From positions 1-64,000 of the forward strand of contig SXIH01000013.1 of NCBI GenBank assembly GCA_005772895.1: a DNA stretch of 64,000 nucleotides, written 5' to 3'. Each line of letters starts with the position of its first letter. Position 1 is the stretch's first letter. Made by a program: the position numbers and the translations under genes. Source of the DNA: Bacteroidota bacterium (GTDB lineage: Bacteria > Bacteroidota > Bacteroidia > 2-12-FULL-35-15). The notes beneath the pieces were generated by a model, which ran no database searches, had not been told where the DNA came from, and worked only from the letters and a program-made list of their open reading frames with translations. This document shows, in pieces, positions 148-24,503 of this stretch.

Positions 148-3100
148 TTATTTCACTAAGGTGACTGTTCCAATATAATTGTGCTTCTTCTGGAAAATAT
201 CTGTGAGCTTTACTTTCCAAACATATACATCCTGCTGAGCTATTTCCGAGCCTTTATTAGCTTTTCCATCCCACATTTTATTTATATTATCGCCATGGAA
301 AATAAGATTTCCCCATCTATCAAAAACTAATAAATCATACTCAACAATCCCAATTCCTTGACCGAAGAAGAAATCATTTATTCCATCTCCATTTGGGGAA
401 AAGGCATTTGGAATAAAGAATGTAAATTCTGGTGCAATTTCAACTAAATGTTCAACAGTATCTAAGCACCCATAATTATTTTCAACAATTAATGTAGCCA
501 GATAAGTTCCAGCAACAATATTTGGATAAATATGTACCGGACTTGAAACATTTGGGTTGATAGAATCGCCATCGCCAAAATAGTACCACCAAGAAGTTAC
601 ATCTGAAGAAGAAGCATTATTCAATGTAACCGCAGGTTCTAATATTGTAGCAGGATTTGGTGTAGGAATAAATTCTGCAAGTGGTTTTGGATACACCTGA
701 ATATAAGAAGGCATTGTTAATGTTGAGGTACAACCATTATTAGTTGTAGCTGTTAAAGTAACATTGTATAAACCTGTTAACTGATAACAATTAGATGGAT
801 TTTGAGTAATATCTAAAAGTCCGCCTTCACCGAAATTCCAAGACCAACCAGTAATTACATCACCTCCACCAACAGTAGTCAAATCGGTAAAGTTAACGCA
901 ATGAACAGGACAACCAGCAAGATTGTCACCACTAAAACTAACTACTGGATTTTGATAGAAAGTAAATGTTACAGTTGATGTTGTAAATGTACATGGACCT
1001 GCAGGATCATCTGTAGTTAAAGTCAAAGACACAGATCCTGCAGCATATTCAGCAGCTGTAGGTGTATAAACGGCATTTAATGTTGAAGAGTTGGGAGCAT
1101 ACGTTCCTGCACCACCACTCCACGTTCCAGTAGTGGCAGAACCTCCAATTGTTCCCGCAAGAGTGATTGTATTTCCTGAACAAACCGATTGAGATGTACC
1201 TGCATTTGCAGTTGGTAACTGAATAATAGTAATTGTCATCTGATCAACTACTGCAGAACAAGGGCCCGCAGGATCATCAGATGTATAAGTTAATGTTACA
1301 GTTCCTGCAGCCTCTTCAGCAGCAGTTGGTGTATAAACGGCATTGGCAGTTGTAGCACTTGGAGTGTATGTTCCAGCACCGCCTGACCAAGTTCCTGAAG
1401 TTGCTGAACCTCCGGTTACTCCTGCCATTGTTGCTGTTGTAGCGATACAAATAGTTTGATCGGGACCTGCATTTATTGTAGCAACAGGATTTATCGTAAT
1501 TGTCATTTGATCAACTGCAAAAGTACAAGGACCGGCTGGGTCATTTGTTGTTATGGTTAAAGTAACAGTTCCAGCTGCAGCCTCTGCTGCTGTTGGTGTA
1601 TAAGATGCATTTAAAGTTGTATTATTTGGACTGAAAGTTCCTGCTCCACCTGTCCACGTTGCTGATGTTGCAGCTCCGCTGATTGTCCCTAAAAGTGGTG
1701 CTGAAGTACCATCACAAATAGTTTGATCCAATCCTGCGCTTGTACCTGGCACAGCAGAAATGGTAATTATCATTTGATCGTTAACCGAAGGACAAGGTCC
1801 GGCAGGATCGTCTGAAGTAAAAGTTAATGTTACGGTTCCAGCAGCTTCTTCTGCTGCAGTAGGAGTATAAGTTGCTAAAGGATCGGTATTGGATGTGCTG
1901 TAAGTTCCTGCTCCACCTGTCCATGTACCTGAAGTTGCTGTACCGCCAAAAGAACCAGCCATAGTCGCACTTCCACCTACACATATTGTTTGATCCGGAC
2001 CTGCATTTATTGTTGGCATTGCATTCACTACAACTGTTGCAGTTCCCACTCCAGGGCAACTACCTCCGGTATTGTATGTTATTGTGTTATTTCCAACGGT
2101 AGCAATGGATGGGTCGAACGTTCCTAATGTTGTATTGGTAATTCCTGTTCCTGACCAAGTACCTCCGGCAATATCTGCAACAAGATTGACGGGTGCAGAA
2201 TTTACACAAAATGGTCCGGCTGGAGTAATTATTGGAGTTGTGCTTCCAGACGCTACAACCGTTGAGGTTGCTTCTGAACATGTACCACCTACAGTTGTAA
2301 CAAATGTATAATCACCAGCAGGTAAACCAAGAGCTGAAACATTTAATACCAAACCTGTTTGCCCAACAATAGCAACTCCATTTAAATACCATTGATACGT
2401 TGCACCTGCAACTGAATTTCCTGTAATTTGAACGTTATTTGCACACCAAGTACCAGTTTGAGCAATAGTTGAAGTAAACGAAGCTGTAGTATTTAATAGC
2501 ATGTTATCAAAATAGAAATATGGATAACAACCACTTGGCGGACTATAACTAGCGGGTAATACACAAGGCGAACCAATCATAATAGTATTGATTGTTACAG
2601 AAGGAGTAAAAGTAATTGTTATTGTTCCCCAAGCGGGATTAGGGGTGTAAGTTGTTTGTCCTAACACAACCCATGGTGCGGTAGGGCAACCAGTAGTTGG
2701 AGCAGGAAGTGAAGCACAACTTGGTGCTCCAAAAATAACAATATCAATTGCACCAAAATCAATTACTCCACCATTACAAACGTTTCCGAATCCATCAATT
2801 GGCGTGGATGCAATATTCATTTGCACAGAATAAGAAGTTCCAGCAAGCATTGGTGCGGTCAAACATGTTCCAACATATTCTTGCCAACCCGGAGAAAAAA
2901 TACAACCCACAATTCCCGCTCCATCCGGAAATGGAACTAACCCCGCTCCAGTAGCAGCACCAAAAACCATCCCGCAGGTATTCATATAATCTGATGTTGC
3001 ACTAGTAGCTTGAACCCAGCCTTGCGCACAATTAACCTGACTGTATGAACTAGGGCAACATGCCATTGTCTCAAAAGAAGGATTAGGAATTAGCGAAGGG

Positions 3101-3294
3101 ACTGAAGTTGTTGCAGGAGTACAATTACAATTTGTTGTATCGTTCAGATCGACTAGACCATCTGAATCATCATCAACACCATTATTACAGATTTCCTGAC
3201 TAAATGCAAATGACGAAATCATCAAAGACACAAGAATAAAAATTGTTCTGAGATAGTTGGTAGTAGTAGAAGTAGTAGTTTTAATAATAATCAT
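148..3294 (-). CDS. T9SS-secreted adhesin with Ig-like repeats, PKD domains and CHU_C-type end
   Basis: A 1048-residue cell-surface protein. A signal peptide (about 1-33) is followed by an acidic EICNNGVDDDSDG motif common at the mature start of Bacteroidota surface proteins. The N-terminal part looks like a lectin or jelly-roll domain. About residues 432-783 hold four tandem Ig-like repeats of about 88 aa, each with NAGxDQTIC, a TWxGGAGT core, YTPTAAE and DPAGPC. Two PKD-like domains follow (about 784-955; WSWNFGEGG and WYYFGDGDS). The last 93 residues (FIPNAFSPNGDGIND, FDRWG) are a gliding-motility-type C-terminal domain, the type-B T9SS sorting signal. It probably works outside the cell as an adhesin. 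The same repeat family fills the giant protein two genes away. The ligand is unknown. Confidence 0.88.
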   Translation of the reverse strand: MIIIKTTTSTTTNYLRTIFILVSLMISSFAFSQEICNNGVDDDSDGLVDLNDTTNCNCTPATTSVPSLIPNPSFETMACCPSSYSQVNCAQGWVQATSATSDYMNTCGMVFGAATGAGLVPFPDGAGIVGCIFSPGWQEYVGTCLTAPMLAGTSYSVQMNIASTPIDGFGNVCNGGVIDFGAIDIVIFGAPSCASLPAPTTGCPTAPWVVLGQTTYTPNPAWGTITITFTPSVTINTIMIGSPCVLPASYSPPSGCYPYFYFDNMLLNTTASFTSTIAQTGTWCANNVQITGNSVAGATYQWYLNGVAIVGQTGLVLNVSALGLPAGDYTFVTTVGGTCSEATSTVVASGSTTPIITPAGPFCVNSAPVNLVADIAGGTWSGTGITNTTLGTFDPSIATVGNNTITYNTGGSCPGVGTATVVVNAMPTINAGPDQTICVGGSATMAGSFGGTATSGTWTGGAGTYSTSNTDPLATYTPTAAEEAAGTVTLTFTSDDPAGPCPSVNDQMIITISAVPGTSAGLDQTICDGTSAPLLGTISGAATSATWTGGAGTFSPNNTTLNASYTPTAAEAAAGTVTLTITTNDPAGPCTFAVDQMTITINPVATINAGPDQTICIATTATMAGVTGGSATSGTWSGGAGTYTPSATTANAVYTPTAAEEAAGTVTLTYTSDDPAGPCSAVVDQMTITIIQLPTANAGTSQSVCSGNTITLAGTIGGSATTGTWSGGAGTYAPNSSTLNAVYTPTAAEYAAGSVSLTLTTDDPAGPCTFTTSTVTFTFYQNPVVSFSGDNLAGCPVHCVNFTDLTTVGGGDVITGWSWNFGEGGLLDITQNPSNCYQLTGLYNVTLTATTNNGCTSTLTMPSYIQVYPKPLAEFIPTPNPATILEPAVTLNNASSSDVTSWWYYFGDGDSINPNVSSPVHIYPNIVAGTYLATLIVENNYGCLDTVEHLVEIAPEFTFFIPNAFSPNGDGINDFFFGQGIGIVEYDLLVFDRWGNLIFHGDNINKMWDGKANKGSEIAQQDVYVWKVKLTDIFQKKHNYIGTVTLVK

Positions 3295-3309: not shown

Positions 3310-5184
3310 TTATTTAGGTATAAATTTAGTAATTTTTTCGATATACGATGCTAATTCCGCACTAGGTTTTAAAGTATTTGCCTTATTTAAGTAAACCAAC
3401 ATGTTTTTATAGTCATTTTGGGAATTGTATAAGTCTATCAGTAGCAAATTCAAATCATAACTTTTAGGAAACTTATTACTCAAAACGGTTAAAAAATCAA
3501 TGGCTTCAACTATTTTACCTTGTGCAACAACTAATTTTTTGTACACCGGAATCAAATCAAACAAATCAGGATTTTGATTTAATGCCTTTTCGTAATACAG
3601 ACGTGCTAAATCGTGTTTTAGTTGCATTTGATAAATATTTCCCAAATTATACATTGGATTTGCATCAGAATGGTCGATTGACAAAACTTTTTTGAAGCAA
3701 ATTTCTGCTTTCTTGTAATTTCTTTCTGCAAAATACAAAGTACCTAAATTGTTCCAGCTAGTATTAAAATCAGGATAGATATAAATTGCCAATTCACACT
3801 GTTTTATAGCTTCTTGAATATATTTATTTCTTTTTTGTGGATTTTTTTCTGCTTTTATTTTTGCCAAAAGTTGATAGGCATACATATCGTGAACTTTTGC
3901 TGATCTCAATACATGCTTTACATCTGAACTTACTAGTGAAAAATTATCGTACCAACTTTTGTTCCTATCAATCACTTTAGCACTGCAAAATACTATCAAT
4001 AAAAAAAGTACAAAAATTACTTTACCACTCAAAAACACTGTTGATGTTGATTTATACAAATTTATTTTTTCGAACAACTTAAAAATAAAAAATGAAACCA
4101 CCATTGAAAAACCAATGGATCCGAAAAAGATAAATCTTTCTGCAACAATTCCTGGAAACAATGCAAACAAGTTAGACACTGCAAGAATATTAATCAAATA
4201 GCAGAATATAGCGAAAGATAAAAATGAATTTGAGCGCATTATTTTTATCATGTAATACAATAAAAAAGAATGAACAAATAAGCTCAAATAAACAAGCACA
4301 CTTCCCCAAGTAGCTATTGGTATTTGATTGTAGCCGTAATAGAATGATAAATTTTGTGGCCAAAACAACATTTGTAAATAATAAAGCCCAATTGAAATAC
4401 CTGTAGGCAATTTTTCTATAATAGATTGATTTACCAGTGGATTTTCAAAAAACAAAAAATCTCTGTCCGGCTGCACCTCTATTAATAACTGTTGTTTTAA
4501 AATTTTTATCTCTATAAACAAAAACACAATTCCAACTGAAATTCCAATTACAGATAATAATTTTTTCTCCTGCTTTCCTCTGATTAAATAAAGAAAGGGA
4601 ATTGCTGCAACATACAAAACTATTGATTGTTTAGAATAATATCCTAAACAGATTAGTAGCGAAATGAAAATTATCCGGTAAACTTTTTTATCGGTTAGAT
4701 ACTTTAAAAATTGAATCATCAATGTTATTCCAAAAACAGCCACCAGCAACTCATCCCTTGATTTTATATTGTCGACTAATTCGGTATGAATAGGATGAAC
4801 TATAAAAAGAATAATTGCAAAGAGTTTTATCCAAATAGAAATATCGGGAAACAAAAGTTGCAAAAAACGAAAAAGTAAAATGCAAAAAAGCGCATATAAT
4901 AAAACACTAATTAAATGACTGACTTGTGGACTTGTTCCAAAAAACTGATACTCTATTGCGAAAGAAGTAATTACAACAGGGCGATATGCATAATTGAATT
5001 TTTTTTCGGAAAAAGAATAGTTTTTAAAGATTTCAGGAATCCCTTTAATACCTTGCTGTGTAAGCTTATTGTTTGAGTTAACAATATGATCATCCAAAGA
5101 ATATTTATTCTTTAGTGAATTTCCATAAATAATAAAAATCAGAATCAGAATAAAAATTGCGACTGATTTATTATTGATTTTCAT
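3310..5184 (-). CDS. GT-C-type membrane protein with C-terminal TPRs (TMTC-like)
   Basis: A 624-residue polytopic membrane protein: about ten hydrophobic segments up to roughly residue 400, then a soluble TPR tail (about 430-610). Two motifs stand out. A DD pair lies in the first loop (residues 31-32, YSLDDH), and HPIHTE occurs at 130-135 with SRDELL at about 142-147. The same motifs, in the same order before TPRs, mark the eukaryotic TMTC O-mannosyltransferases, which use polyprenyl-phosphate sugars to glycosylate beta-sandwich domains. Glycosyltransferase activity is inferred from these motifs only. The gene lies between two Ig-repeat adhesin genes on the same strand and is a paralogue of the gene at 14003-15997. 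The first gene ends 15 bases downstream, so the two may be co-transcribed. Confidence 0.72.
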   Translation of the reverse strand: MKINNKSVAIFILILIFIIYGNSLKNKYSLDDHIVNSNNKLTQQGIKGIPEIFKNYSFSEKKFNYAYRPVVITSFAIEYQFFGTSPQVSHLISVLLYALFCILLFRFLQLLFPDISIWIKLFAIILFIVHPIHTELVDNIKSRDELLVAVFGITLMIQFLKYLTDKKVYRIIFISLLICLGYYSKQSIVLYVAAIPFLYLIRGKQEKKLLSVIGISVGIVFLFIEIKILKQQLLIEVQPDRDFLFFENPLVNQSIIEKLPTGISIGLYYLQMLFWPQNLSFYYGYNQIPIATWGSVLVYLSLFVHSFLLYYMIKIMRSNSFLSFAIFCYLINILAVSNLFALFPGIVAERFIFFGSIGFSMVVSFFIFKLFEKINLYKSTSTVFLSGKVIFVLFLLIVFCSAKVIDRNKSWYDNFSLVSSDVKHVLRSAKVHDMYAYQLLAKIKAEKNPQKRNKYIQEAIKQCELAIYIYPDFNTSWNNLGTLYFAERNYKKAEICFKKVLSIDHSDANPMYNLGNIYQMQLKHDLARLYYEKALNQNPDLFDLIPVYKKLVVAQGKIVEAIDFLTVLSNKFPKSYDLNLLLIDLYNSQNDYKNMLVYLNKANTLKPSAELASYIEKITKFIPK

Positions 5185-5197
5185 ATGGTCTTTTTGT

Positions 5198-5240
5198 AAA
5201 AAAAATCGGGAGAACAGATTTTATCAGCCCTCCCGAATTA
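5198..5240 (-). terminator. Rho-independent terminator after the giant adhesin
   Basis: Minus-strand hairpin with 7-bp arms TCGGGAG (5206-5212) and CTCCCGA (5230-5236). On the minus strand it is followed by a run of T (the A run at 5198-5205). It lies directly downstream of the giant gene ending at 5257. Confidence 0.75.
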
Positions 5241-5256
5241 AAATTTTAAAATAAAT

Positions 5257-8200
5257 TTATCGAGTTAATAAGAAGTAACCTTTTTCAAAGTACTCTTTAT
5301 CATCAAATCCTTTTGCTTTTATGATATAAAAATATGTACCATCAGGAGCCATCACACCACTAGCAGTACGTCCATCCCAACCTCCGTTAGTGGTATGCCA
5401 TTCAAATTCTTTTTGTCCCCAACGATTGTAAATTTCTGCATCCATTGTTTCCAAACCTATAGCCTGAACAGTAAACACATCATTTATATTATCATCATTC
5501 GGTGTAAAAATATTTGGAATAATAAACACCGAATTAATAAACACATCAATTGTAGTACAAGCTGTATCGGCACATCCTGCTGCATTAGAAGCAATCAAAC
5601 ATGCAGTATATTGTCCGAGTGGCGTATAAATATACGTTGGACTAAACACCGTTGATGTATCACCAGTTCCAAAAGTCCAGAAGTAATTTGTTGCTCCTGT
5701 ACTTGTATTTGTGAATGTTACAGAAAGTGGAGTTTCACCTGAAGTAGTATCAGTTGTGAATGATGCTACAACGTTAGAAGAAGAACCTACTGTAAATCCT
5801 GATAATCCACCCAAAGTAATTGAACAACCGTTTGAATCGGTAATTGTTAAAACATAATTACCCGGACCAACATTGGATAAATTTAAAGTAGTATCCACAA
5901 CAGTTCCTGCACTATCCACCCAAGAATAAGAGTATGGAGCAGTTCCACTTACAATAGTAACACCTGTTATAGAACCTGTAGAAGTTCCACAATCAGCTGC
6001 AGTTACGGTAACTAATGAAGTATCAGCAACAGGCAATGGATTGATTGTTACAGTAACAATAGTTGCAGGTCCTTGACAAGCACCAATTGTTCCCGTCACC
6101 CAGAAATTAGTTGTAGTTGTAACTACAGGAGTATAAGGATTAGCAGTACCAATTAAAGATGTTAAACCTGCGTCAGCATACCAAGTAACAGTTCCTGTAG
6201 TAGTAACAGTAATTGGAGAAATCGGACTTCCAAAACAAGCAGGAGGAGGATTTGCAGCAGTTGGTGCAGGAGGAGTATTATTAATTGTAATAACCATACT
6301 ATCAAGCACAGCGCCACAAGCACCAGCAGGATCGTTTGTAGTTAAATATAATGTTACAGTTCCTGCTGTAGTATCTGCTATAGAAGGAGTATAAGTTGCA
6401 CCAAGTATAGCAGAATTATCAAATGTTCCTGTTCCACTTGTTGTCCAGGTAGAACCGGTAGCACTTCCACCAATTGTAGCACCTGTTATTGTATATGTGC
6501 TGCCGGCACAAATAATACCATCTGTTCCGGCATTCACAGTTGCAGAAGGATCAATCACTATAACTGAGTTTGATGTTGCAGCAGCACAACCACCGGCAGC
6601 AGCAATAGTATTTGTTATTGTATATGTTCCAGGAATTGTAGTTGACATATCTATTTCACCTGTACTTGTACTTACAAACGTTAAACCTGCCGGTGAAGAA
6701 GTAAATACTCCAGCGCTAGAGCCAACACCAAATGATGGCAATGGATTGGCATCTGTTTGACAGAATGGAGTTGTATAAGAAAACGCTGCACTAGGAGCAT
6801 TTGTTATTGTTATACTTACTGTATCAGCATTTGGACAAGTTCCATTTGTTGAATAAATAACATCATAAGTTCCTAAAGTACTTCCTAATAAATCAACCTC
6901 TCCTGTTGTAGTACTAACAAAAAAAAGTCCTGCAGGAGTTGAACTAAATGTTCCACCCGGTAGTCCTGTTATTGTTGGAATTGGATTTGTTCCTGTTTGA
7001 CAGAAAGTAGATCCTGAATAATTAAACGTTGCAACATCCAATGGTGTAATTGACAAAGTCATAACATCTACAGCTTGTGAACAAACACCGGCAGGGTCAT
7101 TGGTTGTTATTGTAATAGTAACACTTCCTAAAGCAACATCCGCAGCAGAAGGCGTGTAAGTAGAAGTTAAACTTGTAGCATTACTAAATACACCTGTTCC
7201 ACTGGTAGACCAAGTAATTGAAGTTGCGCTTCCTCCCATTGTTCCAGTTAAAGAATAAGCACTTCCTTCACAAATAGTTCCATCAACACCGGCAGAAGCA
7301 GTTGCAATTGGATCTATTACTACAGTTGAACTAGCTGTCGCGGCAGCACATCCAGCAGCAGCAGCAATGGTATTTGTTATTGTATAAGTTCCTGCAGCAC
7401 TCAATGCCAAATCAATTTCTCCTGTAGATGTACTTACGAATACTAATCCGGCAGGAGTTGCACTAAACACACCTGCACTCGCACCTGCACCAAATGTTGG
7501 ATAAGCTGTTCCAACTTGACAGAATGGTGTACCATAACTGAATGTCGCATCAGGCGCTGAAGTTACTGTTACGCTGATTGTACTATTGTTAGGACAAATT
7601 CCGCTTGTTGTAAAAGTGATAAAATAATTTCCTAATGCACTTGCACTAACATCGATCAATCCTGTTGCAGGATTAATAAATACTAAGCCTGCAGGTGTAG
7701 CCACAAATGTACCACTTGCACCACCAGAAATAGTTGCAACAGGATCGGTTCCTGTTTGACAGAATGTAGATGATGGGTAAGAGAATGTTGCATTGTCCTG
7801 TGGATTAATTGTAAGTACCATAACATCTGTTACAGCACCACAAACTCCTGCAGGATCATTTGTTGTTAAAGTTAATGTAACTGTTCCAGCAGCAATATCT
7901 CCGGCTGAAGGAGTATATGTTGTTGAAGCAGAAGTTGAACTACCGAAAGTACCACTACCACTGGTTGTCCAAGTTACACCAGTTGCACTTCCACCAAATA
8001 CACCAACTAAGTTTGCAGATACGTTCGAGCAGATAACATCATTTGGTCCGGCATTTACAGTAGCTGCAGGACTTATAGTAAGTGTCATTACATCCGTAAC
8101 CGCGTTACAAGGACCAGCTGGATTATTTGTTGTAATAGTTAAAGTTACCGAACCTGCTGCTATGTCTGCTGCAGAAGGAGTGTAAACTGCAGTTGGAGAA

Positions 8201-11200
8201 GTTGCACTACTGAATGTTCCAGATCCTGAAGTTGTCCAGGTTATTGAAGTTGCACTTCCACCTATTGTTCCTGCCAATATATATGTACCGCTGGAACAAA
8301 TAGTAGCATTACCACCTGCTGAAACAGTAGCTGCAGGACTAATAGTCAATACCATTGAATTATTCACTGAAGTACAAGGTCCAACAGGATCATTTGAAGT
8401 AATTGTTAATGTTACTGAACCTGCTGCAATATCTGCTGCAGAAGGAGTATAAGTCGGAGTTGTAATATTAGGATTACTAAATGTTCCAGTTCCGGAAGTT
8501 GTCCATGTTACCAAAGTAGCACTTCCACCCATTGTTCCGGCAAGTGTATATGTACTACCTGCACAAATAGATGCCGCAGCACCAGCACTTACAGTTGGAG
8601 CGGGGTTAATAGTGAGTGTCAAGAAATCAGAAACAGAGTTACATGGTCCAGCAGGATCGTTAGTTGTAATTGTAAGCGTTACTGAACCAAAAGAAATATC
8701 CGCTGCTGATGGAGTATAAACAGCTGTTGTAGAAGTTGCAGAACTAAATGTACCCGTACCACTTGTTGTCCAAGTAATAGAAGTTGCACCACCACCCATT
8801 GAACCAGCCAAAGTATAAGTTGAACCAGCGCATATTGTTGCATTTGCTCCTGCAACTACTGTTGGAGCTGGATTAATTGTAATGGTCATTGTTGATGTTA
8901 CTGCAGGACAAGGACCCGCAGGATCATTTGTTGTAATTGTCAACGTAACTGTTCCTGCAGAAATATCAGCAGCTGATGGAGTATAAATTGCGGTTGTAGA
9001 AGCAGTATTGTTAAATGTTCCAGTTCCGCTTGTCGACCATGTTATAGAAGTAGCACCTCCACCAAACGTTCCTGCTAATGAATAAGTAGAACCCGCACAA
9101 ATTGTTGCATTGGCTCCTGCTGATACAGTAGCAGCAGGATTTATTGTTAATACCATGTTACTTGTAACAGCATTACAAGGACCAGCTGGATCATTGGTTG
9201 TTAAAGTTAATGTTACTGTTCCTGCAGCAATATCAGCAGCTGATGGTGTATATGTTGCCGTTAAAGAAGTTGCAGTGCTGAATGTACCTGAGCCACTTGT
9301 CGTCCAGGTTACACTTGTAGCACCACCACCCATTGTTCCTGCTAAGGTATATGTTGAGCCAGAACAAATTGTTGCTGCAGCTCCTGCAGATACTGTAGGC
9401 ATTGGATTTATTGTAAGCACTAAAGAACTTGTAACAGCAGGACAAGGGCCTGCAGGATCGTTAGTTGTTAATGTTAAAGTTACTGTACCCGCTGAAATAT
9501 CAGCAGCAGAAGGAGTATAAATTGCTCCGAGAAGCGCAGGATTATTAAATGTTCCGGTTCCGCTTGTTGACCAAGTTGAAGATGTTGCACTTCCACCAAT
9601 AACACCTGCAAGCGTATAAGTTGAACCTGCACAAATTGTTGCAGCACTTCCTGCAGCAGCAGTTGCAGCAGGGCTAATAGTAATAACCATAGTACTTGTT
9701 ACAAAAGGACAAGGACCTGCAGGATCGTTAGTTGTTAAAGTTAAAGTAACTGTTCCTGCAGCAATATCTGCAGCTGATGGAGTATAAACTGCTGTAGCAG
9801 ATGTTGCAGAACTAAAAGTACCTGAACCTGAAGTTGTCCAAGTTAATGTTGTTGCACTTCCACCAATAGCACCAGCTAAAGTATAAGTGCTACCAGCACA
9901 AATTGTAGCAGCAGAACCGGCATTAGCAGTAGCTTCAGCATTAATGGTAACTGAAGCATTAGCACTTGCAGCAGCACAACCACCAGAAGCAGCAATTGAA
10001 TTGGTAACAGTATATGTTCCGGGTGCTGTGGCTGATAAATCAATTTGACCTGTATTAACGTTTACAAAAGTTAATCCTGCCGGAACTGCAGAAAATGTTC
10101 CTGCTGTAGCACCTCCGCCAAACGTTGGGAAAGGATCTGCACCGGATGTACAATAAGGACCAGAATAACTAAATGTTGCTGTTGGCGCTAAAGTAATAGT
10201 TACACTCACGTTGCTTGAATTAGCACAAGGGCCCGGTGTTGTATATGTAATTGTATAAGTATTTAAAGCACTGGCAGCTAAGTTAATTGTTCCTGTTGCT
10301 GCATTGATTGATAAACCGGCAGGTGAAGAAGTAAATGTTCCTCCTGCAACACCAGTAATTGTTGGAGTTGGATTAACACCTGTTTGACAATAAGTTGCTG
10401 AACCATAAGTAAACGCAGCATTTTGCAAAGGTGTAATAGTTAATACCATTGGGTCGGATGCAGGACCGCAAGGACCAGCAGGATCATTAGATGTAAGCGT
10501 TAATGTTACTGAACCAGCACTTATATCTGATGCTGAAGGAGTATAAACAGGATTTAAAATAGTAGCATTACTGAATGTACCACTTCCACTGGTTGTCCAC
10601 GTTACAGAAGTAGTTGCACCACCTTGTGAACCTGCAAGCGTATAAGTTTGGTTTGCACAAATAGTTGCGTTTACGTTTGCATTTACCGTAGCTGCAGGAT
10701 TAATTGTAAGAACCATATTGGAAACCGCTGCAGGACAAGGTCCAGCAGGATCATTGGTTGTCATAGTTAATGTTACAGTACCTGCAGCAATATCAGCAGC
10801 AGAAGGAGTGTAAGTTGGAGTTACAGAAGTTGTACTGCTAAATGTTCCTGAACCACTCGTTGTCCATGTTACAGAAGTTGCACTACCTCCAATTGAGCCC
10901 GGAACAGAATAAGTTGAACCGGCACAAATAGTAGCGGCAGGTCCTGCACTTGCGGTAGCACCAGGAGTTATTGTCAGCACCATATTATCAGTTGCAGAAG
11001 GACATGGTCCTGCAGGATCGTTTGTTGTAATAGTTAATGTAACAGTTCCTCCACTTATATCAGAAGCAGAAGGAGTATAGGTTGCAGTTGCAGATGAAGT
11101 TGAACTAAATGTTCCACTACCACTTGTTGACCAAGTTAAAGTTGATGCACCACCTCCGATTGAACCAGCTAAAGTATAGGTACTACCAGCACAAATACTT

Positions 11201-13437
11201 GCATCAACGTTTGCACTAGCAGTTGCAGCAGGATTTATTGTAACAGTCAAGTTACTTGTTGCAGCAACACAAGGTCCAGCTGGATCGTTAGTTGTTAAAG
11301 TCAATGTTACAGTACCAGCGGCAATATCACCTGCAGAAGGAGTATAAGTTGTATTTACCAAAGAAGCATTTGCAAATGTTCCTGAACCTGATGTTGTCCA
11401 AGTAGAAGTTGTAGCACTACCACCAATTGATCCTGTAAGTGTTACAGTGCTTCCTGCACAAATTGTTTGATTGGATCCTGCTGCAGCTGTAGCTGCAGGA
11501 TTAATTGTAAGAGTTATAAAATCAGTTGCTGCAGGACAAGGACCTGCAGGATCGTTAGTAGTAATTGTTAATGTTACTGTTCCTGAAGCAATATCTGCTG
11601 CAGAAGGAGTATAAGTTGTTACAGGTGTTCCCGCACTTGCAAATGTTCCACTTCCACTGGTTGTCCATGTAGAGGAAGTTGCGCTTCCGCTAAAACTAGC
11701 ACCGGCAGTAGCATATGTACTACCAGCACAAATAGTTGCAGTTGGAGGTCCTGCATTTGCTCCGGCTGGTAAGTTAATTGTAAGCACCATAAAATCTGTT
11801 ACAGCATTACATGGTCCTGCAGGATTATTTGTTGTTATGGTTAACGTAACTGTACCTGCTGCTATATCAGCTGCAGATGGAGTATACACAGGATTTAAAA
11901 TTGCGGTATTACTAAAAGTACCGGAACCACTGGTTGTCCAGGTAATTGTGGATGCACCTCCGCCCATTGCTCCGCCCAATGTAGCAGTACTTCCTGAACA
12001 AATTGTTTGATCAGAACCAGCATTTACAGTTGCTGCAGGACTAATGGTTAAAACCATTACATCCAGTACGGATGGACAAGGTCCTGCTGGATCGTTACTT
12101 GTATAAGTTATTGTAACTGAACCTGCGGCAATATCAGCTGCAGAAGGAGTATAAACAGCGGTTGGAGAAGTACCTGAACTAAAAGAACCACTTCCGCTGG
12201 TTGACCAAGTTGCACTTGTTGCTCCACCACCGAAAGCACCAGCCATGGTTGCTGTACTTCCCGAACAAATACTTTGATCGGGACCAGCATTCACAGTTGC
12301 CGGAGTATTAACAACAACAGTACTCGTAGTCGTTTGCGATGCTCCGCACGTTCCCGCTATGGTAACAGTATAGGTTGTTGTGACGGCTGGGCTAACGACT
12401 ATCGAAGACGTAGTTGCCCCACCTGGTGCCCAGGAATAGCCTGTTGCTCCAGTAGCATTTGCTGTTAAGGTAGTGCTTTGTCCGGCACAAATTGTAGATG
12501 CTGAGGCTGTAACACTAACCGTTAAAACTCCAGAAGTTGCGGCAATAGAATAATCGCAGACATCTCCGGCATAACCATCAATCATTAAATAATAAGTATT
12601 TCCTATAGTAAGAGAAGTGGCAGTAATTGTTCCGTTAGTTTCAACCCCGGGATTCCAGCAATTTGAAAAAGAAGTAAAAGAAACGCAATTAGTTGTACTA
12701 TAAACTTCCATTTGAATCCCTTGTGAATTCAAACAGTTACCAACTGTTATATCAAATGTTGCAGAAGTAGCACTTGCCACAAATGATAACCAGGAATTAT
12801 TTTCAACAGATCCACAAAAGCCTGCAGGAACTTGTGATGCAGTGTAACAAGAACTTGTTGAACCACAATATCCATTTAAATTACAAATCGGAGTAGCTGC
12901 TAAACAGTTGTCGTTTGCAGTTGGGTTAGTACATGGTATTCCGGTATTTCCAAACGAAAGATTCCAGGAATTTAAAAAACCAACGTCACCACCAAAACCA
13001 TCCGTAATACAAAGAGTCCACACACCATTTCCACTAGTATTGTTGTTCACACAGTTCATCGATCCTTCCGGACGATAAGAACCATTGAAAGGCGCTGTTC
13101 CAGTAGTTATAGATGTTGCAGCGTTACCGTCAAAACAAGTAGTAATATAGTTATCTCCTGCTCCACCATTATTGCTTGTCAATTGTATTTGTGCTCCACT
13201 AGGAGCAGTGAGCACCATTGTAAGATCGGCATCATAGGTGTGAGTCAAGTTTATACAACAAGTAATCAAACCATTGGTTGGAGTTAACACACCCGGCAAA
13301 CCCACAACGTTAGCAGTAAAGCAAGTTGTAGCTAAATCTGGAACCGCTCCGGTTGTTCCAGCAAATGTTTGCGCATTTGAATATTTGTTAAAGCATAAAA
13401 AACTTACAATCAGAAATAAAAGTAGTTTTAGTTTCAT
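5257..13437 (-). CDS. Giant 2726-aa T9SS-secreted repeat adhesin
   Basis: Very large exported protein. The order is: signal peptide (about 1-22); P/homo-B-like domain (about 25-165, with DADLTMVLTAPSG and NGVWTLCITD); a second globular domain to about 305; one Ig-like unit; then a long repeat region (about 379-2370). By eye I count 17 units of about 88 aa (type A: AGxxxTICAGSTYTLAG, TWTTSGSGTF, YTPSAADIAAGTVTL, NDPAGPC). Three pairs of a different unit of about 82 aa (type B: TFSYxxxFCQTG, SSPAGLxF, TGxIDL) are interspersed. An Ig-like unit, a SprB-like repeat (about 2450-2530), a PKD domain (about 2535-2620) and a CHU_C-type sorting domain (FIPNIFTPNDDNIND, YNRWG) close it. SprB-like units occur in the mobile gliding adhesin of Flavobacterium, so an adhesion or gliding role is plausible. 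A terminator follows the gene. Confidence 0.9.
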   Translation of the reverse strand: MKLKLLLFLIVSFLCFNKYSNAQTFAGTTGAVPDLATTCFTANVVGLPGVLTPTNGLITCCINLTHTYDADLTMVLTAPSGAQIQLTSNNGGAGDNYITTCFDGNAATSITTGTAPFNGSYRPEGSMNCVNNNTSGNGVWTLCITDGFGGDVGFLNSWNLSFGNTGIPCTNPTANDNCLAATPICNLNGYCGSTSSCYTASQVPAGFCGSVENNSWLSFVASATSATFDITVGNCLNSQGIQMEVYSTTNCVSFTSFSNCWNPGVETNGTITATSLTIGNTYYLMIDGYAGDVCDYSIAATSGVLTVSVTASASTICAGQSTTLTANATGATGYSWAPGGATTSSIVVSPAVTTTYTVTIAGTCGASQTTTSTVVVNTPATVNAGPDQSICSGSTATMAGAFGGGATSATWSTSGSGSFSSGTSPTAVYTPSAADIAAGSVTITYTSNDPAGPCPSVLDVMVLTISPAATVNAGSDQTICSGSTATLGGAMGGGASTITWTTSGSGTFSNTAILNPVYTPSAADIAAGTVTLTITTNNPAGPCNAVTDFMVLTINLPAGANAGPPTATICAGSTYATAGASFSGSATSSTWTTSGSGTFASAGTPVTTYTPSAADIASGTVTLTITTNDPAGPCPAATDFITLTINPAATAAAGSNQTICAGSTVTLTGSIGGSATTSTWTTSGSGTFANASLVNTTYTPSAGDIAAGTVTLTLTTNDPAGPCVAATSNLTVTINPAATASANVDASICAGSTYTLAGSIGGGASTLTWSTSGSGTFSSTSSATATYTPSASDISGGTVTLTITTNDPAGPCPSATDNMVLTITPGATASAGPAATICAGSTYSVPGSIGGSATSVTWTTSGSGTFSSTTSVTPTYTPSAADIAAGTVTLTMTTNDPAGPCPAAVSNMVLTINPAATVNANVNATICANQTYTLAGSQGGATTSVTWTTSGSGTFSNATILNPVYTPSASDISAGSVTLTLTSNDPAGPCGPASDPMVLTITPLQNAAFTYGSATYCQTGVNPTPTITGVAGGTFTSSPAGLSINAATGTINLAASALNTYTITYTTPGPCANSSNVSVTITLAPTATFSYSGPYCTSGADPFPTFGGGATAGTFSAVPAGLTFVNVNTGQIDLSATAPGTYTVTNSIAASGGCAAASANASVTINAEATANAGSAATICAGSTYTLAGAIGGSATTLTWTTSGSGTFSSATSATAVYTPSAADIAAGTVTLTLTTNDPAGPCPFVTSTMVITISPAATAAAGSAATICAGSTYTLAGVIGGSATSSTWSTSGTGTFNNPALLGAIYTPSAADISAGTVTLTLTTNDPAGPCPAVTSSLVLTINPMPTVSAGAAATICSGSTYTLAGTMGGGATSVTWTTSGSGTFSTATSLTATYTPSAADIAAGTVTLTLTTNDPAGPCNAVTSNMVLTINPAATVSAGANATICAGSTYSLAGTFGGGATSITWSTSGTGTFNNTASTTAIYTPSAADISAGTVTLTITTNDPAGPCPAVTSTMTITINPAPTVVAGANATICAGSTYTLAGSMGGGATSITWTTSGTGTFSSATSTTAVYTPSAADISFGSVTLTITTNDPAGPCNSVSDFLTLTINPAPTVSAGAAASICAGSTYTLAGTMGGSATLVTWTTSGTGTFSNPNITTPTYTPSAADIAAGSVTLTITSNDPVGPCTSVNNSMVLTISPAATVSAGGNATICSSGTYILAGTIGGSATSITWTTSGSGTFSSATSPTAVYTPSAADIAAGSVTLTITTNNPAGPCNAVTDVMTLTISPAATVNAGPNDVICSNVSANLVGVFGGSATGVTWTTSGSGTFGSSTSASTTYTPSAGDIAAGTVTLTLTTNDPAGVCGAVTDVMVLTINPQDNATFSYPSSTFCQTGTDPVATISGGASGTFVATPAGLVFINPATGLIDVSASALGNYFITFTTSGICPNNSTISVTVTSAPDATFSYGTPFCQVGTAYPTFGAGASAGVFSATPAGLVFVSTSTGEIDLALSAAGTYTITNTIAAAAGCAAATASSTVVIDPIATASAGVDGTICEGSAYSLTGTMGGSATSITWSTSGTGVFSNATSLTSTYTPSAADVALGSVTITITTNDPAGVCSQAVDVMTLSITPLDVATFNYSGSTFCQTGTNPIPTITGLPGGTFSSTPAGLFFVSTTTGEVDLLGSTLGTYDVIYSTNGTCPNADTVSITITNAPSAAFSYTTPFCQTDANPLPSFGVGSSAGVFTSSPAGLTFVSTSTGEIDMSTTIPGTYTITNTIAAAGGCAAATSNSVIVIDPSATVNAGTDGIICAGSTYTITGATIGGSATGSTWTTSGTGTFDNSAILGATYTPSIADTTAGTVTLYLTTNDPAGACGAVLDSMVITINNTPPAPTAANPPPACFGSPISPITVTTTGTVTWYADAGLTSLIGTANPYTPVVTTTTNFWVTGTIGACQGPATIVTVTINPLPVADTSLVTVTAADCGTSTGSITGVTIVSGTAPYSYSWVDSAGTVVDTTLNLSNVGPGNYVLTITDSNGCSITLGGLSGFTVGSSSNVVASFTTDTTSGETPLSVTFTNTSTGATNYFWTFGTGDTSTVFSPTYIYTPLGQYTACLIASNAAGCADTACTTIDVFINSVFIIPNIFTPNDDNINDVFTVQAIGLETMDAEIYNRWGQKEFEWHTTNGGWDGRTASGVMAPDGTYFYIIKAKGFDDKEYFEKGYFLLTR
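5750..12330 (-). repeat. Tandem Ig-like repeat array coding about 2000 residues
   Basis: Direct repeats of about 265 bp (type A) and 245 bp (type B) within the giant adhesin. In protein order the layout is 7 A, one B pair, 8 A, one B pair, 1 A, one B pair, 1 A. Units are diverged at the base level but keep near-identical motifs. Boundaries are approximate. Such arrays are prone to unit gain and loss and to assembly collapse. Confidence 0.8.
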
Positions 13438-13472
13438 AGTGGGATTGTTTATTGTTGCCTTGAATAGGAAGA

Positions 13473-13913
13473 TTATTTATTACCTTGTTTTTGCTTTTTG
13501 AGATTGCCTATGTATGTGTACATATCGTCAATGGGCACAGGAACATCATCAATAATTATCTCAACAATCCCCACCTTTTTCAGAAGGTTTTGTACGAGTT
13601 CGGCTTTGAAATTTTTAGAAAAGGTAATTGCTAACAATGCATTATTTTCAGCACTTACAGGTGATATTTTTACTTTTTTAACTCCGTCCTGAGCTCTCAA
13701 GAGAGTTGCAAAACTTTCACAATCAGCATTTTCTACAACATTTAATAGAAAAAAGGTATGAGTTACTAAGTCTCCTTCAACGGATTTTCCGCTACCAGTC
13801 TTATATTTCAGCTTATAAGAGGCTTTTTGTTTTTGCGAGAAAGAAGTGGTTGAGAAAAGGAGTAAAGCTAAAATCAAAATAGCTTTTGTAGAAAAAAGGC
13901 AGTAGTTTTTCAT
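13473..13913 (-). CDS. Small secreted protein of HMA-like fold, unknown function
   Basis: A 146-residue protein with a signal peptide (about 1-26, ending SFSQ). The middle shows a ferredoxin-like pattern: a strand (HTFFLLNVV), a helix with CESFATLLRAQDGVKKVKISP, a strand (ALLAITFS), a helix (AELVQNLLKKVG) and a last strand (IVEIIIDD). This resembles heavy-metal-associated domains but has no CxxC metal site. A lysine-rich tail ends it. It lies 36 bases upstream of the giant adhesin on the same strand and may be co-transcribed. A protein of the same architecture is encoded at 38038-38448. The function is unknown, and the fold is a guess from the pattern. Confidence 0.6.
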   Translation of the reverse strand: MKNYCLFSTKAILILALLLFSTTSFSQKQKASYKLKYKTGSGKSVEGDLVTHTFFLLNVVENADCESFATLLRAQDGVKKVKISPVSAENNALLAITFSKNFKAELVQNLLKKVGIVEIIIDDVPVPIDDMYTYIGNLKKQKQGNK

Positions 13914-14002
13914 TATAAATTTAGTTTGTGATTATGAATTGTCTAAAATACTATTTATCTGTTAAATAAGATGCTTTTTAGTCGACTTTAGTTGCATTAA
14001 AA

Positions 14003-15997
14003 TTAACGTTTGGAAGCACCCATTAAGTCGTAATATTTGTTTGCTTTCTCCAAATCACCTTTTTCTTTAAAATAATTGGCCAAAAAAGAGTTCAAAAACC
14101 TGTTATTTGAGTTCAAACGTATGCATTCTTCAAAATAAGGTATTGCCGAAAGTGTATCCCCTCTCATAAAGTAAACATTCCCAATATTCACATGCAATAC
14201 ATCTGCTTTAATTCCTTTCTTTATAGCGTCTTTATTAAGTTTCAAAATGTCATCATACTTTTTTTCTTCTGCATACATAGCGCTCAACGAAAAATAAGTA
14301 CTCACAAAATTGGGGTCAATTTCTATGGATTTCATGTAATACTTTTCAGCATCAACATAGTTTTTCCCCTTTGCTTCACAAGTCGCTAAGTTAAAATAAG
14401 CTTCAACGTAATTTGTATCTAATGTTATTGCCTTTTTCAGATAAGGAATTGACTTTTCGGGCTGATTGTAATATGTATAGTAAATCATTCCCAAATTGTT
14501 CAAAGATGAAATGTAATCCGGAATAATCCTGATCGATTCTAAGTAGTATTTTTCCGCATTTTGAACATAAAACCGTTTTTCCTGCATACTCATTTTGGGA
14601 TTCTCTTTGATTTTTTGGATGGATGCTGCTGCTATCAATGAGTTGGCATGAGCTGATTCCGGAGCATTTTTTACATCTGTCTGATATAGTGTAAAAGTAT
14701 CTTTCCAGTCTTTAATCCTTGTAAAAGAACGCAGCCCGAAAAGAAGTATAATTACCCCTAAAGTCAAAAATAAAGGGCTTGAAAATGCTGGAAATTTGAG
14801 TTCTTTATTTTCATACACAACTTTATATGCGTTTAATAATGCCCATGCAGCTACAAAACATAATCCAAGAGATGGAATAAAGGCAAATCGTTCACCAACT
14901 ATACCTACAACAGGCACCAACACGTTTGTAAACATAGAAATGGTAACCAAAAAGAAAAGAATTCCAAAAATCTCAATTCCTTTTGTTTTAAAATTTTTAA
15001 TGATATAAAAGGTAACTCCAAGCAATCCGATCAATACAATCCAAACAATTGCATTCGACCAAGTAGCTATTGGTACTTGATTGTAGCCATAATAGGAAAC
15101 CAGCGGGTGTGGAATCAAAAACATTTTTAAATAAAAATAAATGCTGTAAAAACCACTGGGAATACGGTCCCACAGAGTTGAACCTAAATAAAGCGGATTT
15201 TCCCAATCCAACGTTTTTCTCGAAAAATTGTGATTTGCTATTTTGTTTGCATATCTGTATACAAGAATTGGGAAAACGTAAGAAATAAAAATCGGGATCA
15301 TTCTTTTGAATGAAACATCTTTTAAAAACCACAAAGTAAATGGGATTATCGCCACAATTGTCATGGCATCTTTTTTCGACATCAAGCCAAAAAGAATAAA
15401 AAATGCACCAAAAAATAAATGGTAATATTTTTTTGTTTCAATAAATTTTAAATAAAAGAAAATGGACAGAATAAATCCTGTAAAACTTAAAATAACATCT
15501 CTGTTTTTAATGCTGATTACTACTTCCGAATGAAGAGGATGAATCAAGAATAATGTCGTTATTATAAACGGTAAAAGAATGTTGTATTTCAACAACAAAG
15601 CCTTAAGAACCATGTATAGCAAGACAATCGCTAAAGCATAAAGAAGCACATTTATGAAATGGCTCACATGTGGATTTACTCCAAAAAACTCACACTCGAG
15701 TGCAAAAGTTGCTTTTACAATAGGGCGGTATTCGTAATTTGATTTTTGACTGTTTACAACATAAGTTGTTCTGAAAATTTCCGGAATTGCTTCAATTCCC
15801 CTCTGAACTTGTTGGTTATTCCTAACCACAAATTCATCATCCATGGAATAATTGTTTTTAATACTTTTCCCATAAATCAAAAAGCACAAAAGCACAAAAA
15901 ATAAAATTATTCTACGGTTCAGCTTTTTTTCGCTGAATACATTTTCTATTATTTTTTTTTCAGGCTTGGGCGACTCCTTTTCTTTACTCTTTTTCAT
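14003..15997 (-). CDS. GT-C-type membrane protein with C-terminal TPRs (TMTC-like), second copy
   Basis: A 664-residue paralogue of the protein at 3310-5184. I place the start at the ATG at 15997; a TTG nine bases upstream is also in frame. It has a lysine-rich cytosolic tail, about ten membrane segments, a DD pair in the first loop (YSMDDE, residues 53-54), HPLHSE (153-158) with KNRD shortly after, and about five TPR units from roughly 440 to the end. These are the landmarks of TMTC-type O-glycosyltransferases, but bacterial members are uncharacterised as far as I know, so the activity is inferred. It is the first gene of the minus-strand adhesin block and is divergent from the KAS III operon across a gap of about 130 bases. 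Confidence 0.72.
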   Translation of the reverse strand: MKKSKEKESPKPEKKIIENVFSEKKLNRRIILFFVLLCFLIYGKSIKNNYSMDDEFVVRNNQQVQRGIEAIPEIFRTTYVVNSQKSNYEYRPIVKATFALECEFFGVNPHVSHFINVLLYALAIVLLYMVLKALLLKYNILLPFIITTLFLIHPLHSEVVISIKNRDVILSFTGFILSIFFYLKFIETKKYYHLFFGAFFILFGLMSKKDAMTIVAIIPFTLWFLKDVSFKRMIPIFISYVFPILVYRYANKIANHNFSRKTLDWENPLYLGSTLWDRIPSGFYSIYFYLKMFLIPHPLVSYYGYNQVPIATWSNAIVWIVLIGLLGVTFYIIKNFKTKGIEIFGILFFLVTISMFTNVLVPVVGIVGERFAFIPSLGLCFVAAWALLNAYKVVYENKELKFPAFSSPLFLTLGVIILLFGLRSFTRIKDWKDTFTLYQTDVKNAPESAHANSLIAAASIQKIKENPKMSMQEKRFYVQNAEKYYLESIRIIPDYISSLNNLGMIYYTYYNQPEKSIPYLKKAITLDTNYVEAYFNLATCEAKGKNYVDAEKYYMKSIEIDPNFVSTYFSLSAMYAEEKKYDDILKLNKDAIKKGIKADVLHVNIGNVYFMRGDTLSAIPYFEECIRLNSNNRFLNSFLANYFKEKGDLEKANKYYDLMGASKR

Positions 15998-16066: not shown

Positions 16067-16131
16067 TACTTTTAATTCAGAAATCAGTGTTGATATTCTA
16101 AAAGTTTTTATTGAAAGAATTTACTACAAAA

Positions 16132-17145
16132 ATGTCGGCATACATTAAAGCAATCAGCTATTATCTTCCTGAAAAAATTTTCAGCAATGAAGATTTCTTT
16201 AAGACTTTCCCGGATTCTATCACTCAAAAAGAGAATTATTTGAGAATTGGTGTTCAGGAAAGACATATTGTAGAGGAAAATATAACGGCATCCGACATTG
16301 GAGTTATAGCTGGCTTAAATTTATTTAAAGAGCACAATATAAAACCTGAGGAAATTGATTTCTTACTTTTTTGTTCTTTAGAATTCGATTATCATTTTCC
16401 TTCTTCTTGTTCCATTATTCAAGCAAAATTAAATCTTCCAAAATCATGCGGTGCCACCGATTATAACTTAGGCTGTAGTGGTTATATATACGGACTAGGA
16501 ATTGCGAAAGGTTTAATTGAATCTCTTGGAATGAAAAATGTTTTGCTTATAACAGCATCTACTCTTTCTAAAAAAATTCATCCTAAAGATAAAAGTTCCA
16601 GATTTATTTTTGGTGATGCTTCTGCTGCTACATTAATTTCTTCAAGTGAAAAAAATAATGGTTTAGGCTCTTTTGTTTTTGGAACAGATGGCAAAAAAGC
16701 AGAAAAAATTATCATAAAAGATGGCGCTGCCAGAAATCCAATTTCCAAAGATTCATATATAGAAATTGAAGATGAAAGCGGAAACATAACAAGCAATGCA
16801 CATTTGCAGATGGAAGGAACCGGTGTTTTTTATTTTGGATTAAAAACAATTCCGATTATGATAGAAGATGTCATAAAAAAAGAAAAAATTAAACTGGAAG
16901 AGATAGACCTATTTATCTTTCATCAAGCCAATTTATTTTTAATCAGTACCGTTTGTACAAAATTAAATATTCCAAAAGAAAAAGTGTACAATTACATGGA
17001 AAAGGTTGGAAACACAGTTGCTTCATCCATTCCTATTACCCTATATGAAGCAATGAAAGAAGGAAAAGCAAAACCAGGTCAAAAAATATTACTAGCAGGA
17101 TTTGGTGTTGGCTTATCTTGGGGTGCAACCATTATTGAGTTGTAA
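16132..17145 (+). CDS. 3-oxoacyl-ACP synthase III family protein (KAS III-1)
   Basis: A 337-residue FabH-type ketosynthase, counted from the ATG at 16132; an in-frame TTG 21 bases upstream would add seven non-conserved residues. The full condensing triad is present: C115 in NLGCSGY, H264 in FHQAN and N294 in VGNTVASS, with the C-terminal GFGVGLSWG. It should be competent for decarboxylative condensation of an acyl starter with malonyl-ACP, or could act as an acyltransferase like CloN2. It opens a tight operon with an ACP, a second KAS III and a reductase. This grouping is not the primary fatty-acid operon, so a dedicated acyl chain is likely. The substrate is not deducible from the sequence. 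Confidence 0.88.
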   Translation: MSAYIKAISYYLPEKIFSNEDFFKTFPDSITQKENYLRIGVQERHIVEENITASDIGVIAGLNLFKEHNIKPEEIDFLLFCSLEFDYHFPSSCSIIQAKLNLPKSCGATDYNLGCSGYIYGLGIAKGLIESLGMKNVLLITASTLSKKIHPKDKSSRFIFGDASAATLISSSEKNNGLGSFVFGTDGKKAEKIIIKDGAARNPISKDSYIEIEDESGNITSNAHLQMEGTGVFYFGLKTIPIMIEDVIKKEKIKLEEIDLFIFHQANLFLISTVCTKLNIPKEKVYNYMEKVGNTVASSIPITLYEAMKEGKAKPGQKILLAGFGVGLSWGATIIEL

Positions 17146-17195: not shown

Positions 17196-17432
17196 ATGAT
17201 TAATATACAAGAATTTACAAAAGGATTGGAAGCAGAGTTTGAAGATGTTGAACCTGGAACACTAAATCCCGACACAAATTTCAGAAGCATAAAAGGCTGG
17301 AGCAGTATGCATGCCTTAATTATTATTGCATACATAGATGCGAATTACAACGCATTACTAAATGGCGCTGATTTAAAATCGGCACAAAGCATTCAAGACC
17401 TTTACAAAATTACTATCGAAAAATTAAAATAG
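17196..17432 (+). CDS. Acyl carrier protein (stand-alone)
   Basis: A 78-residue acidic, helical protein of ACP size. The phosphopantetheine site is expected at S37 in GWSSMHAL, where SSM replaces the usual DSL; the loss of the Asp is unusual but occurs in specialised carriers. It sits between the two KAS III genes. Its stop codon overlaps the GTG start of the second one by one base, which suggests translational coupling. It probably carries the growing acyl chain for both synthases and the reductase. It differs clearly from the second carrier protein at 27096-27359, so the locus has two carriers. Confidence 0.8.
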   Translation: MINIQEFTKGLEAEFEDVEPGTLNPDTNFRSIKGWSSMHALIIIAYIDANYNALLNGADLKSAQSIQDLYKITIEKLK

Positions 17433-18490
17433 TGGCTTATCTATCTACTTCCAATACTAATATTATTGCTATCTCCAGTTGTGTGCCCGGCCACATAGAA
17501 AAAACTGCTGATTACAATCATATTTCTGTTGAAGAGAGAGAATTGTTTTCAAAAACCACCGGAATAATTGAAAGAAGAGTTGCTGATAAAGATGTTGCTT
17601 GCTCCGATTTATGTTATGTTGCAGCTAAGCATTTATTAGATAAATATAATTGTAAAGAAGAAATTGACCTAGTAATTTTTGTTTCGCAATCACCCGATTA
17701 TATTTTACCAGCCACTTCTATTCTATTACAAAACCGTTTAGGATTAAAAAAAGATTGCATTGCTTTTGATATCAGCTTAGGATGTTCGGGATATGTTTAT
17801 GGATTGTCCGTTATCACTAATTTAATGCAGAGCGGACAATTAAAAAAAGGACTTTTATTAGTTGGGGATAAATCAAGCACTTCAACAACGTATACCGACA
17901 AAAGCACTTATCCTTTGTTTGGAGACGCGGGAACTGCAACATTGATAGAGCATTCGCAAACCAAAAATGAAATGCATTTCAATTTACAAAGTGATGGCTC
18001 AGGAAAAAATTCAATTATAATTGAACACGGAAGTTGCAGAACACCCTTTGATAAAACATTAGAAGATTTAGTAGAAATTGAGCCTGGAATAAGCAGAGCA
18101 AAAAAACATTTGATTTTAAATGGAATGGATGTTTTTAATTTTGCATTGAGAGAAGCTGCAACTAACATTAATACTTTATACGAAAAAAGTAATAAAACAA
18201 AAGAAAATACCGATTACTTTGTTTTACATCAAGCAAATAAACTCATCAACGAAAGTGTGAGAAAAAAACTAAAGATTGATATTGAAAAAGTTCCTTATTC
18301 CATAGATGTATTTGGTAACACAAGCTCTGCTTCTATTCCTTTAACCATGTGTTACAAAATGGAAGAAGCATTACGAACAAAAAAATTATCTTTGCTATTG
18401 AGTGGTTTCGGAGTCGGATATTCCTGGGGAAGTGTTATTTTAGAAACCGAAAATGTATATACCAATCTTTTAGAATATGATAGAGCTTAA
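17432..18490 (+). CDS. 3-oxoacyl-ACP synthase III family protein (KAS III-2)
   Basis: A 352-residue FabH-like ketosynthase starting with GTG that overlaps the ACP stop by one base. The triad is complete: C118 (SLGCSGY), H266 (LHQAN) and N296 (FGNTSSAS), with GFGVGYSWG near the end. It is clearly diverged from KAS III-1, so the two probably use different starters or do successive steps; one may act as an acyl transferase between carriers. The 3' end overlaps the next gene by 14 bases. A dedicated acyl-building role is inferred from the context. Confidence 0.88.
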   Translation: MAYLSTSNTNIIAISSCVPGHIEKTADYNHISVEERELFSKTTGIIERRVADKDVACSDLCYVAAKHLLDKYNCKEEIDLVIFVSQSPDYILPATSILLQNRLGLKKDCIAFDISLGCSGYVYGLSVITNLMQSGQLKKGLLLVGDKSSTSTTYTDKSTYPLFGDAGTATLIEHSQTKNEMHFNLQSDGSGKNSIIIEHGSCRTPFDKTLEDLVEIEPGISRAKKHLILNGMDVFNFALREAATNINTLYEKSNKTKENTDYFVLHQANKLINESVRKKLKIDIEKVPYSIDVFGNTSSASIPLTMCYKMEEALRTKKLSLLLSGFGVGYSWGSVILETENVYTNLLEYDRA

Positions 18491-21422: not shown

Positions 21423-21442
21423 TTGAGAATATTTATCTTTAA

Positions 21443-21450: not shown

Positions 21451-21465
21451 ATAAATTAAGAGTTG

Positions 21466-24461: not shown

Positions 24462-24503
24462 AAATTTAGTAGTTTGAAGTAGTAAAGCTAAAATACAAAA
24501 TAT

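Follow-up and report, generated by a model that had tools for sequence, protein, structure and literature searches.

TMTC1-4 are animal O-mannosyltransferases of the family GT105, which modify the B and G strands of extracellular cadherin (EC) domains (PMC11292533). They are glycosyltransferases of the GT-C type with 11 transmembrane (TM) segments, C-terminal tetratricopeptide repeats (TPRs) and a list of motifs, DD (first loop), YRP, R-D (loop 2) and ER (loop 5), and in structural models a Glu (of the KE(T/Q)xxT motif) and an Asp (of the DW motif) are placed around a divalent metal (PMC7801869). Few protein glycosyltransferases are as poorly understood as the TMTC enzymes; their bacterial relatives are abundant in Bacteroidota, and we found no assigned function for these relatives in the literature. 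Here we describe a locus in a 64,000-nucleotide stretch of DNA (the window) from a Bacteroidota bacterium (contig SXIH01000013.1, positions 1 to 64,000), in which five genes of one strand (-) encode, in this order, an adhesin (C), a GT-C/TPR protein (A), a giant adhesin, a small secreted protein and a second GT-C/TPR protein (B). A six-gene operon, overlooked by the preliminary description of this DNA, is transcribed divergently from B, 114 bases from the B start. We tentatively propose, giving it a little under an even chance, that B would take an N-acylated sugar carried on polyprenyl phosphate and attach it to exported proteins, of which the adjacent adhesin is a plausible one.

A and B are paralogs (33% identity over 544 amino acids, E 5e-89) sharing the motifs DD (in the first loop), YRP, HP(I/L)H(T/S)E, RD, SK and ER. 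The gene order on one strand, the DD, HP(I/L)H(T/S)E and RD motifs and the C-terminal TPRs had already been read from the sequence in the preliminary description, and the gene coordinates and alignments bear them out. Among 124 family proteins DD, YRP, HPxHxE, the RD pair and ER show almost no variation. Pfam recognises the TPRs alone in A and B, neither of which matches PF08409 (TMTC_DUF1736) above its curated cut-off; the relationship to TMTC, as initially supposed, is supported by the family, where TMTC_DUF1736 is matched at E<=1 by 52 of 61 diverse members (PMT_2 by 28 of the 61) and above cut-off by 17 of 31 relatives. The genome encodes two further close members, on contigs C71 and C62, and the C71 paralog exceeds the PF08409 cut-off (30.6 versus 27 bits). 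A profile search with the membrane domains detected between 1 and 15 copies in each of the 36 genomes of the genus. In a sample of 198 genomes from across the class, 116 have family members. Several genomes of the genus (L082 (G005), L083, L084, L085 and L086) have their GT-C/TPR genes in tandem arrays, with 4 to 8 or more genes in a row.

Hydropathy averaged over 61 sequences gives 11 membrane segments, one long segment being counted as two. Basic residues cluster in every second loop, all on one face, and the motifs and TPRs are on the opposite face. The apparent arrangement, N-terminus inside, 11 TM segments and TPRs extracytoplasmic, is the published TMTC topology. The resemblance of this family to TMTC is not new, because full-length prokaryotic TMTC-like proteins of GT-C plus TPR architecture were already noted in 2021 by Eisenhaber et al. 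(PMC7801869); unlike their single deltaproteobacterial example, given without context, the proteins described here come with gene linkage, tandem arrays and a clade lacking the proposed metal ligands.

Both proposed metal ligands are kept in 83 of the 124 family members, including the C71 and C62 paralogs. A, B and the B orthologs carry K, R or Q plus Y at these positions, so that A and B, unlike the animal enzymes, have neither the E of KE nor the D of DW. The Asp is never kept where the Glu is lost, and in a FastTree tree the proteins without the pair form one clade of 34, which includes A and B; a few others fall outside it on long branches. The comparison shows A and B to be members of a divergent subfamily without the two ligands proposed for TMTC. 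Since the metal in TMTC itself is only modelled, the loss of ligands indicates divergence rather than a proven change of mechanism.

The divergent operon encodes two proteins similar to beta-ketoacyl-ACP synthase III (KASIII; the genes KAS1 and KAS2) that flank a protein resembling an acyl carrier protein (ACP), followed by a FabG-like reductase, a family 2 glycosyltransferase (GT2) and a GNAT acyltransferase. KASIII, ACP, FabG-like reductase and acyltransferase thus occur together (the ACP match being weak), and the same four functions plus an aminotransferase make the N-(3-hydroxybutyryl)-viosamine of Pseudomonas syringae flagellin (PMC3927599). The operon resembles the viosamine island and the P. 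aeruginosa PAK glycosylation island (PMC3927599) in this set of enzymes, which there builds an N-acyl sugar for a surface protein; it differs in having two KASIII genes and no local aminotransferase, and in a predicted polyprenyl-phosphate GT2 and GT-C transferase in place of cytoplasmic glycosyltransferases. The GT2 aligns end-to-end with E. coli ArnC, including the C-terminal membrane part (27% identity over 309 amino acids, E 1e-36), and scores 119-122 bits with the PgfS and ArnC models, below their cut-offs. The nearest worked example is the Pgf system of Streptococcus mutans (PgfS-PgfM1-PgfE-PgfM2), where a GT2 and a PMT-like membrane protein modify the neighbouring adhesin (Cnm, WapA; PMC5856776). 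The present locus likewise has an ArnC/PgfS-type GT2 and a comparable membrane protein beside an adhesin; unlike it, Pgf is Gram-positive and lacks TPRs and KASIII/ACP genes, and the GT2 described here (119 bits with the PgfS model) stays far below the cut-off of 500. Plain mannose is an unlikely donor because of this neighbouring operon, which points to an acylated sugar; probably, judging from the gene content, the operon makes an unusual sugar for B.

The operon accompanies B closely. It is found in 15 of 16 genomes with B, the 16th being cut by a contig end, and the block stands beside B in 14 of the 15 relatives read. In the exception (L077), KAS2 is about 26 kb from B on the same contig and a halogenase set adjoins B instead; in another locus (L069) the contig ends after KAS1. 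The presence of KAS2 and that of B agree in 34 of the 36 genomes of the genus (p=4e-8 without a correction for kinship); of the two that disagree, one (G006) is a contig cut and the other (G047) has KAS2 beside another GT-C/TPR gene. Outside the genus, 57 genomes have KAS2, and a hand count put it no more than 10 kb from a GT-C/TPR gene in 15 of them, versus about 1-3 expected; in the neighbourhood sample full operon blocks stand at 3 of 12 loci of the clade without metal ligands versus none of 48 others.

Both adhesins end in a TIGR04131/CHU_C domain (for type B sorting by the type IX secretion system, T9SS) that scores above the curated cut-off, and both contain PKD domains; the giant adhesin has in addition a P-domain. 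A repeat with the signature TW(S/T)xSG occurs 17 times in the giant adhesin, mostly at a spacing of 89 amino acids, and five times in adhesin C, in agreement with the initial count of about 20 Ig-like, Ser/Thr-rich beta-sandwich repeats; a model of two repeats is all-beta with a predicted local distance difference test (pLDDT) score of 95, and S plus T make up 31% of the giant adhesin. K plus R amount to 0.4%, and standard tryptic proteomics would therefore miss this protein. In the PDB the repeat model matches best the base of GhpA (E 8e-7), the grappling hook protein of the bacterium Aureispira, which outranks every other solved structure. Cadherin EC domains make up most of the matches that follow (E 4e-6 to 4e-4), and the two-domain TM-scores against the PDB matches are modest (0.35-0.5); as the PDB is rich in cadherins, the modelled fold speaks of a likeness between tandem beta-sandwiches, not of homology. 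With this qualification, the fold search supports a predicted resemblance of the repeats to the known substrates of TMTC, although the candidate client is here a T9SS protein.

The general O-glycosylation system of Bacteroidota, which operates in the same phylum on Ser/Thr acceptors of exported proteins, was considered as a route for the giant adhesin and rejected. Its sequon, D(S/T)(A/I/L/V/M/T), is depleted in this protein (7 occurrences versus 14.8 in shuffled sequences), and none was found in the main repeats.

The association of GT-C/TPR genes with large T9SS proteins holds in particular lineages. A giant T9SS adhesin adjoins B in 12 of 15 B loci, usually with the small secreted protein in between, and in most of the 12 it is located between B and rpsL-rpsG-fusA; among the loci that keep it, B diverges to about 50% identity. 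In a locus of another family (L130), an ortholog of adhesin C (45%) follows the A ortholog at 37 bp, and the C62 paralog is followed at 48-74 bp by a 1200-amino acid T9SS type B protein in four of four genomes.

Family membership, motifs, topology, gene linkage and repeat fold thus have computational support, and from these features we infer the activity of B, the nature of its donor and acceptor (Ser/Thr of the adhesin) and the role of its TPRs as follows. KASIII, ACP and the FabG-like reductase would build a short acyl chain, which the GNAT enzyme would attach to an amino sugar; the ArnC/PgfS-like GT2 would join the acylated sugar to polyprenyl phosphate, and the product would then be flipped across the membrane. 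B, as a periplasm-facing GT-C enzyme of TMTC type, may transfer the sugar by way of its DD loop to Ser/Thr of exported proteins, with the TPR domain holding the client. The giant T9SS adhesin with its Thr-rich, cadherin-like repeats would be the likeliest main client, not the sole one, and A may do likewise for adhesin C. An ambitious version of the proposal, which we regard as unlikely, is a bacterial functional counterpart of the TMTC-cadherin pair, in which a metal-independent TMTC-like clade would decorate the cadherin-fold repeats of adhesins, and the divergent operon would supply a dedicated N-acylated sugar for this purpose (perhaps 3-hydroxybutyryl- or chloropyrrolyl-). The locus suggests, and does not prove, that bacteria sugar-coat adhesins much as animals do cadherins. 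It brings together a proposed pathway for the donor, a candidate for the acceptor and residues that could be mutated, so that the origin of domain-specific O-glycosylation would become testable in bacteria, and T9SS adhesins would gain a route of glycosylation distinct from the known sequon system.

The points that weigh against the transfer of an N-acylated sugar to the adhesin by B concern the enzyme, the donor and the client. As for the enzyme, a profile search against the PDB gave no match, the comparison with the single sequence of E. coli ArnT was not significant, and the proposed metal-ligand positions are occupied by Q and Y in A and by K and Y in B. The AlphaFold structure predicted for B from an alignment of seven sequences has a membrane domain too poor to corroborate the topology; a fold search with this model returned TPR proteins. 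As for the donor, no nucleotide-sugar aminotransferase was found among the annotated genes between 16111 and 27103, the rest of the genome being outside this search, and in most other genomes the operon lies far from GT-C genes. The existence of many genomes with the operon and no GT-C neighbour implies that it has some further use or works from afar. It would also fit an operon that makes a small molecule or lipid (a chloropyrrole-type metabolite or a hydroxylated lipid) and is a mere neighbour of B, for which the genes nearby for an adenylation enzyme, a peptidyl carrier protein (PCP), a PigA/RedW-like dehydrogenase, a halogenase-like protein, three proteins of hydroxylase fold and two sulfotransferases may be taken as further signs. 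We consider this decidedly improbable: an ArnC-type GT2 is among the products of the operon, the operon follows B within the genus, and its adjacency to GT-C genes recurs in several families.

As for the client, adhesins with these repeats are present in many genomes without B, and no co-occurrence of B with the repeat type was detected (p=0.30). Three genomes (G006, G043 and G046) keep B and also the donor operon (in G006 visible just to KAS1); in each of them the adhesin is absent from the locus, and at the threshold applied no such repeat was detected. Synteny within one genus, moreover, is not independent evidence. In a class-wide test, T9SS cargo was counted within 5 kb of 60 GT-C/TPR loci and of 99 control genes, the controls coming from 19 regions of larger contigs, and T9SS cargo in general was not enriched (31/60 versus 45/99, p=0.51); a family-wide link to T9SS proteins in general is thus rejected. 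Cargo of at least 800 amino acids was enriched (15/60 versus 9/99, p=0.011), with a length threshold picked after the first output, and GT-C/TPR genes in tandem arrays have T9SS neighbours in 1 of 26 cases.

The retention of B without an adhesin in three genomes, together with the commonness of the repeats without B, makes the adhesin a likely client in the B lineage rather than the defining partner of B. The preliminary interpretation, which was of dedicated O-glycosylation of the adhesins, is therefore supported in part while its observations are confirmed: the relationship to TMTC, the adhesin neighbours in particular lineages and the cadherin-like fold stand, and "dedicated" is too strong in view of the absent class-wide enrichment, the arrays, B without adhesin and repeats without B. 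The same class-wide counts, arrays and repeat adhesins without B would be expected if the B family were general protein O-glycosyltransferases acting on many exported proteins, with the adhesins adjacent by chance and inheritance. We hold this to be unlikely, albeit worth weighing, as the adhesin keeps its position in the 12 loci despite the divergence of B, the pair of A and adhesin C is kept in another family, and the large protein follows the C62 paralog in all four genomes.

Alternatively, B may, like GtrC or ArnT, put the sugar of the operon on a glycan or lipid (lipopolysaccharide (LPS) or capsule), and the adhesin would be its neighbour by inherited synteny or depend on LPS only for anchoring. 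The partner of ArnT in lipid A modification is an ArnC-type GT2, B persists without the adhesin in three genomes, and Porphyromonas T9SS cargo is reported to be anchored to A-LPS (PMC13086638). We give this possibility a minor share of the probability, as the TPR domain is on the predicted periplasmic side, as in the protein-modifying TMTC enzymes, no O-antigen or lipid A genes were recognised among the annotated neighbours, and the position beside large T9SS proteins is strongly conserved in several lineages.

Features of the locus, with positions in the window
Feature	Position	Strand	Description
Adhesin C	148-3294	-	1048 aa; PKD domains, five repeats, T9SS type B sorting domain
GT-C/TPR protein A	3310-5184	-	624 aa; metal-ligand positions are Q and Y
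Giant adhesin G	5257-13437	-	2726 aa; signal peptide, P-domain, 17 repeats, PKD, CHU_C type B sorting domain
Main 89-aa repeats of the giant adhesin	7816-12318	-	predicted cadherin/Ig-like beta-sandwich; from repeat spacing, model and fold search
Small secreted protein between B and giant adhesin	13473-13913	-	146 aa
GT-C/TPR protein B	14003-15997	-	664 aa from ATG; 11 TM by averaged hydropathy, DD/YRP/HPLHSE/RD/ER on one side, C-terminal TPRs
Donor operon gene 1	16111-17145	+	beta-ketoacyl-ACP synthase III-like
Donor operon gene 2	17196-17432	+	small acyl carrier protein-like; weak PP-binding match below cut-off; position kept in relatives
Donor operon gene 3 (KAS2)	17432-18490	+	second KASIII-like protein
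Donor operon gene 4	18477-19220	+	FabG-like short-chain dehydrogenase
Donor operon gene 5	19217-20134	+	GT2 of ArnC/PgfS type, predicted polyprenyl-phosphate sugar synthase
Donor operon gene 6	20128-20739	+	GNAT acyltransferase; some PseH similarity, below cut-off
Possible accessory set	23070-27359	-	PCP, amino-acid adenylation enzyme, PigA/RedW-like prolyl-PCP dehydrogenase, FAD halogenase-like protein (WxWxIP motif)

A TTG precedes the ATG of B by 9 bases. The small secreted protein has no family match; its position is conserved and its sequence is conserved solely in close relatives. A scan for promoters and terminators gave no clear excess over shuffled sequences, and the Rfam and tRNA searches returned no match.

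The genes of the possible accessory set look like a (chloro)pyrrole-2-carboxyl-carrier pathway, and homologs lie close to B in L068 and, in L077, adjoin it in divergent orientation. Adjoining the donor operon (20736-22922) are three genes of aspartyl/asparaginyl hydroxylase fold (OlsC/LpxO-like, below cut-off), whose homologs recur in several related loci. Two sulfotransferase genes are located at 35753-38017, with homologs near the donor operon in L070, L072, L078-L081, L109, L110 and L113.

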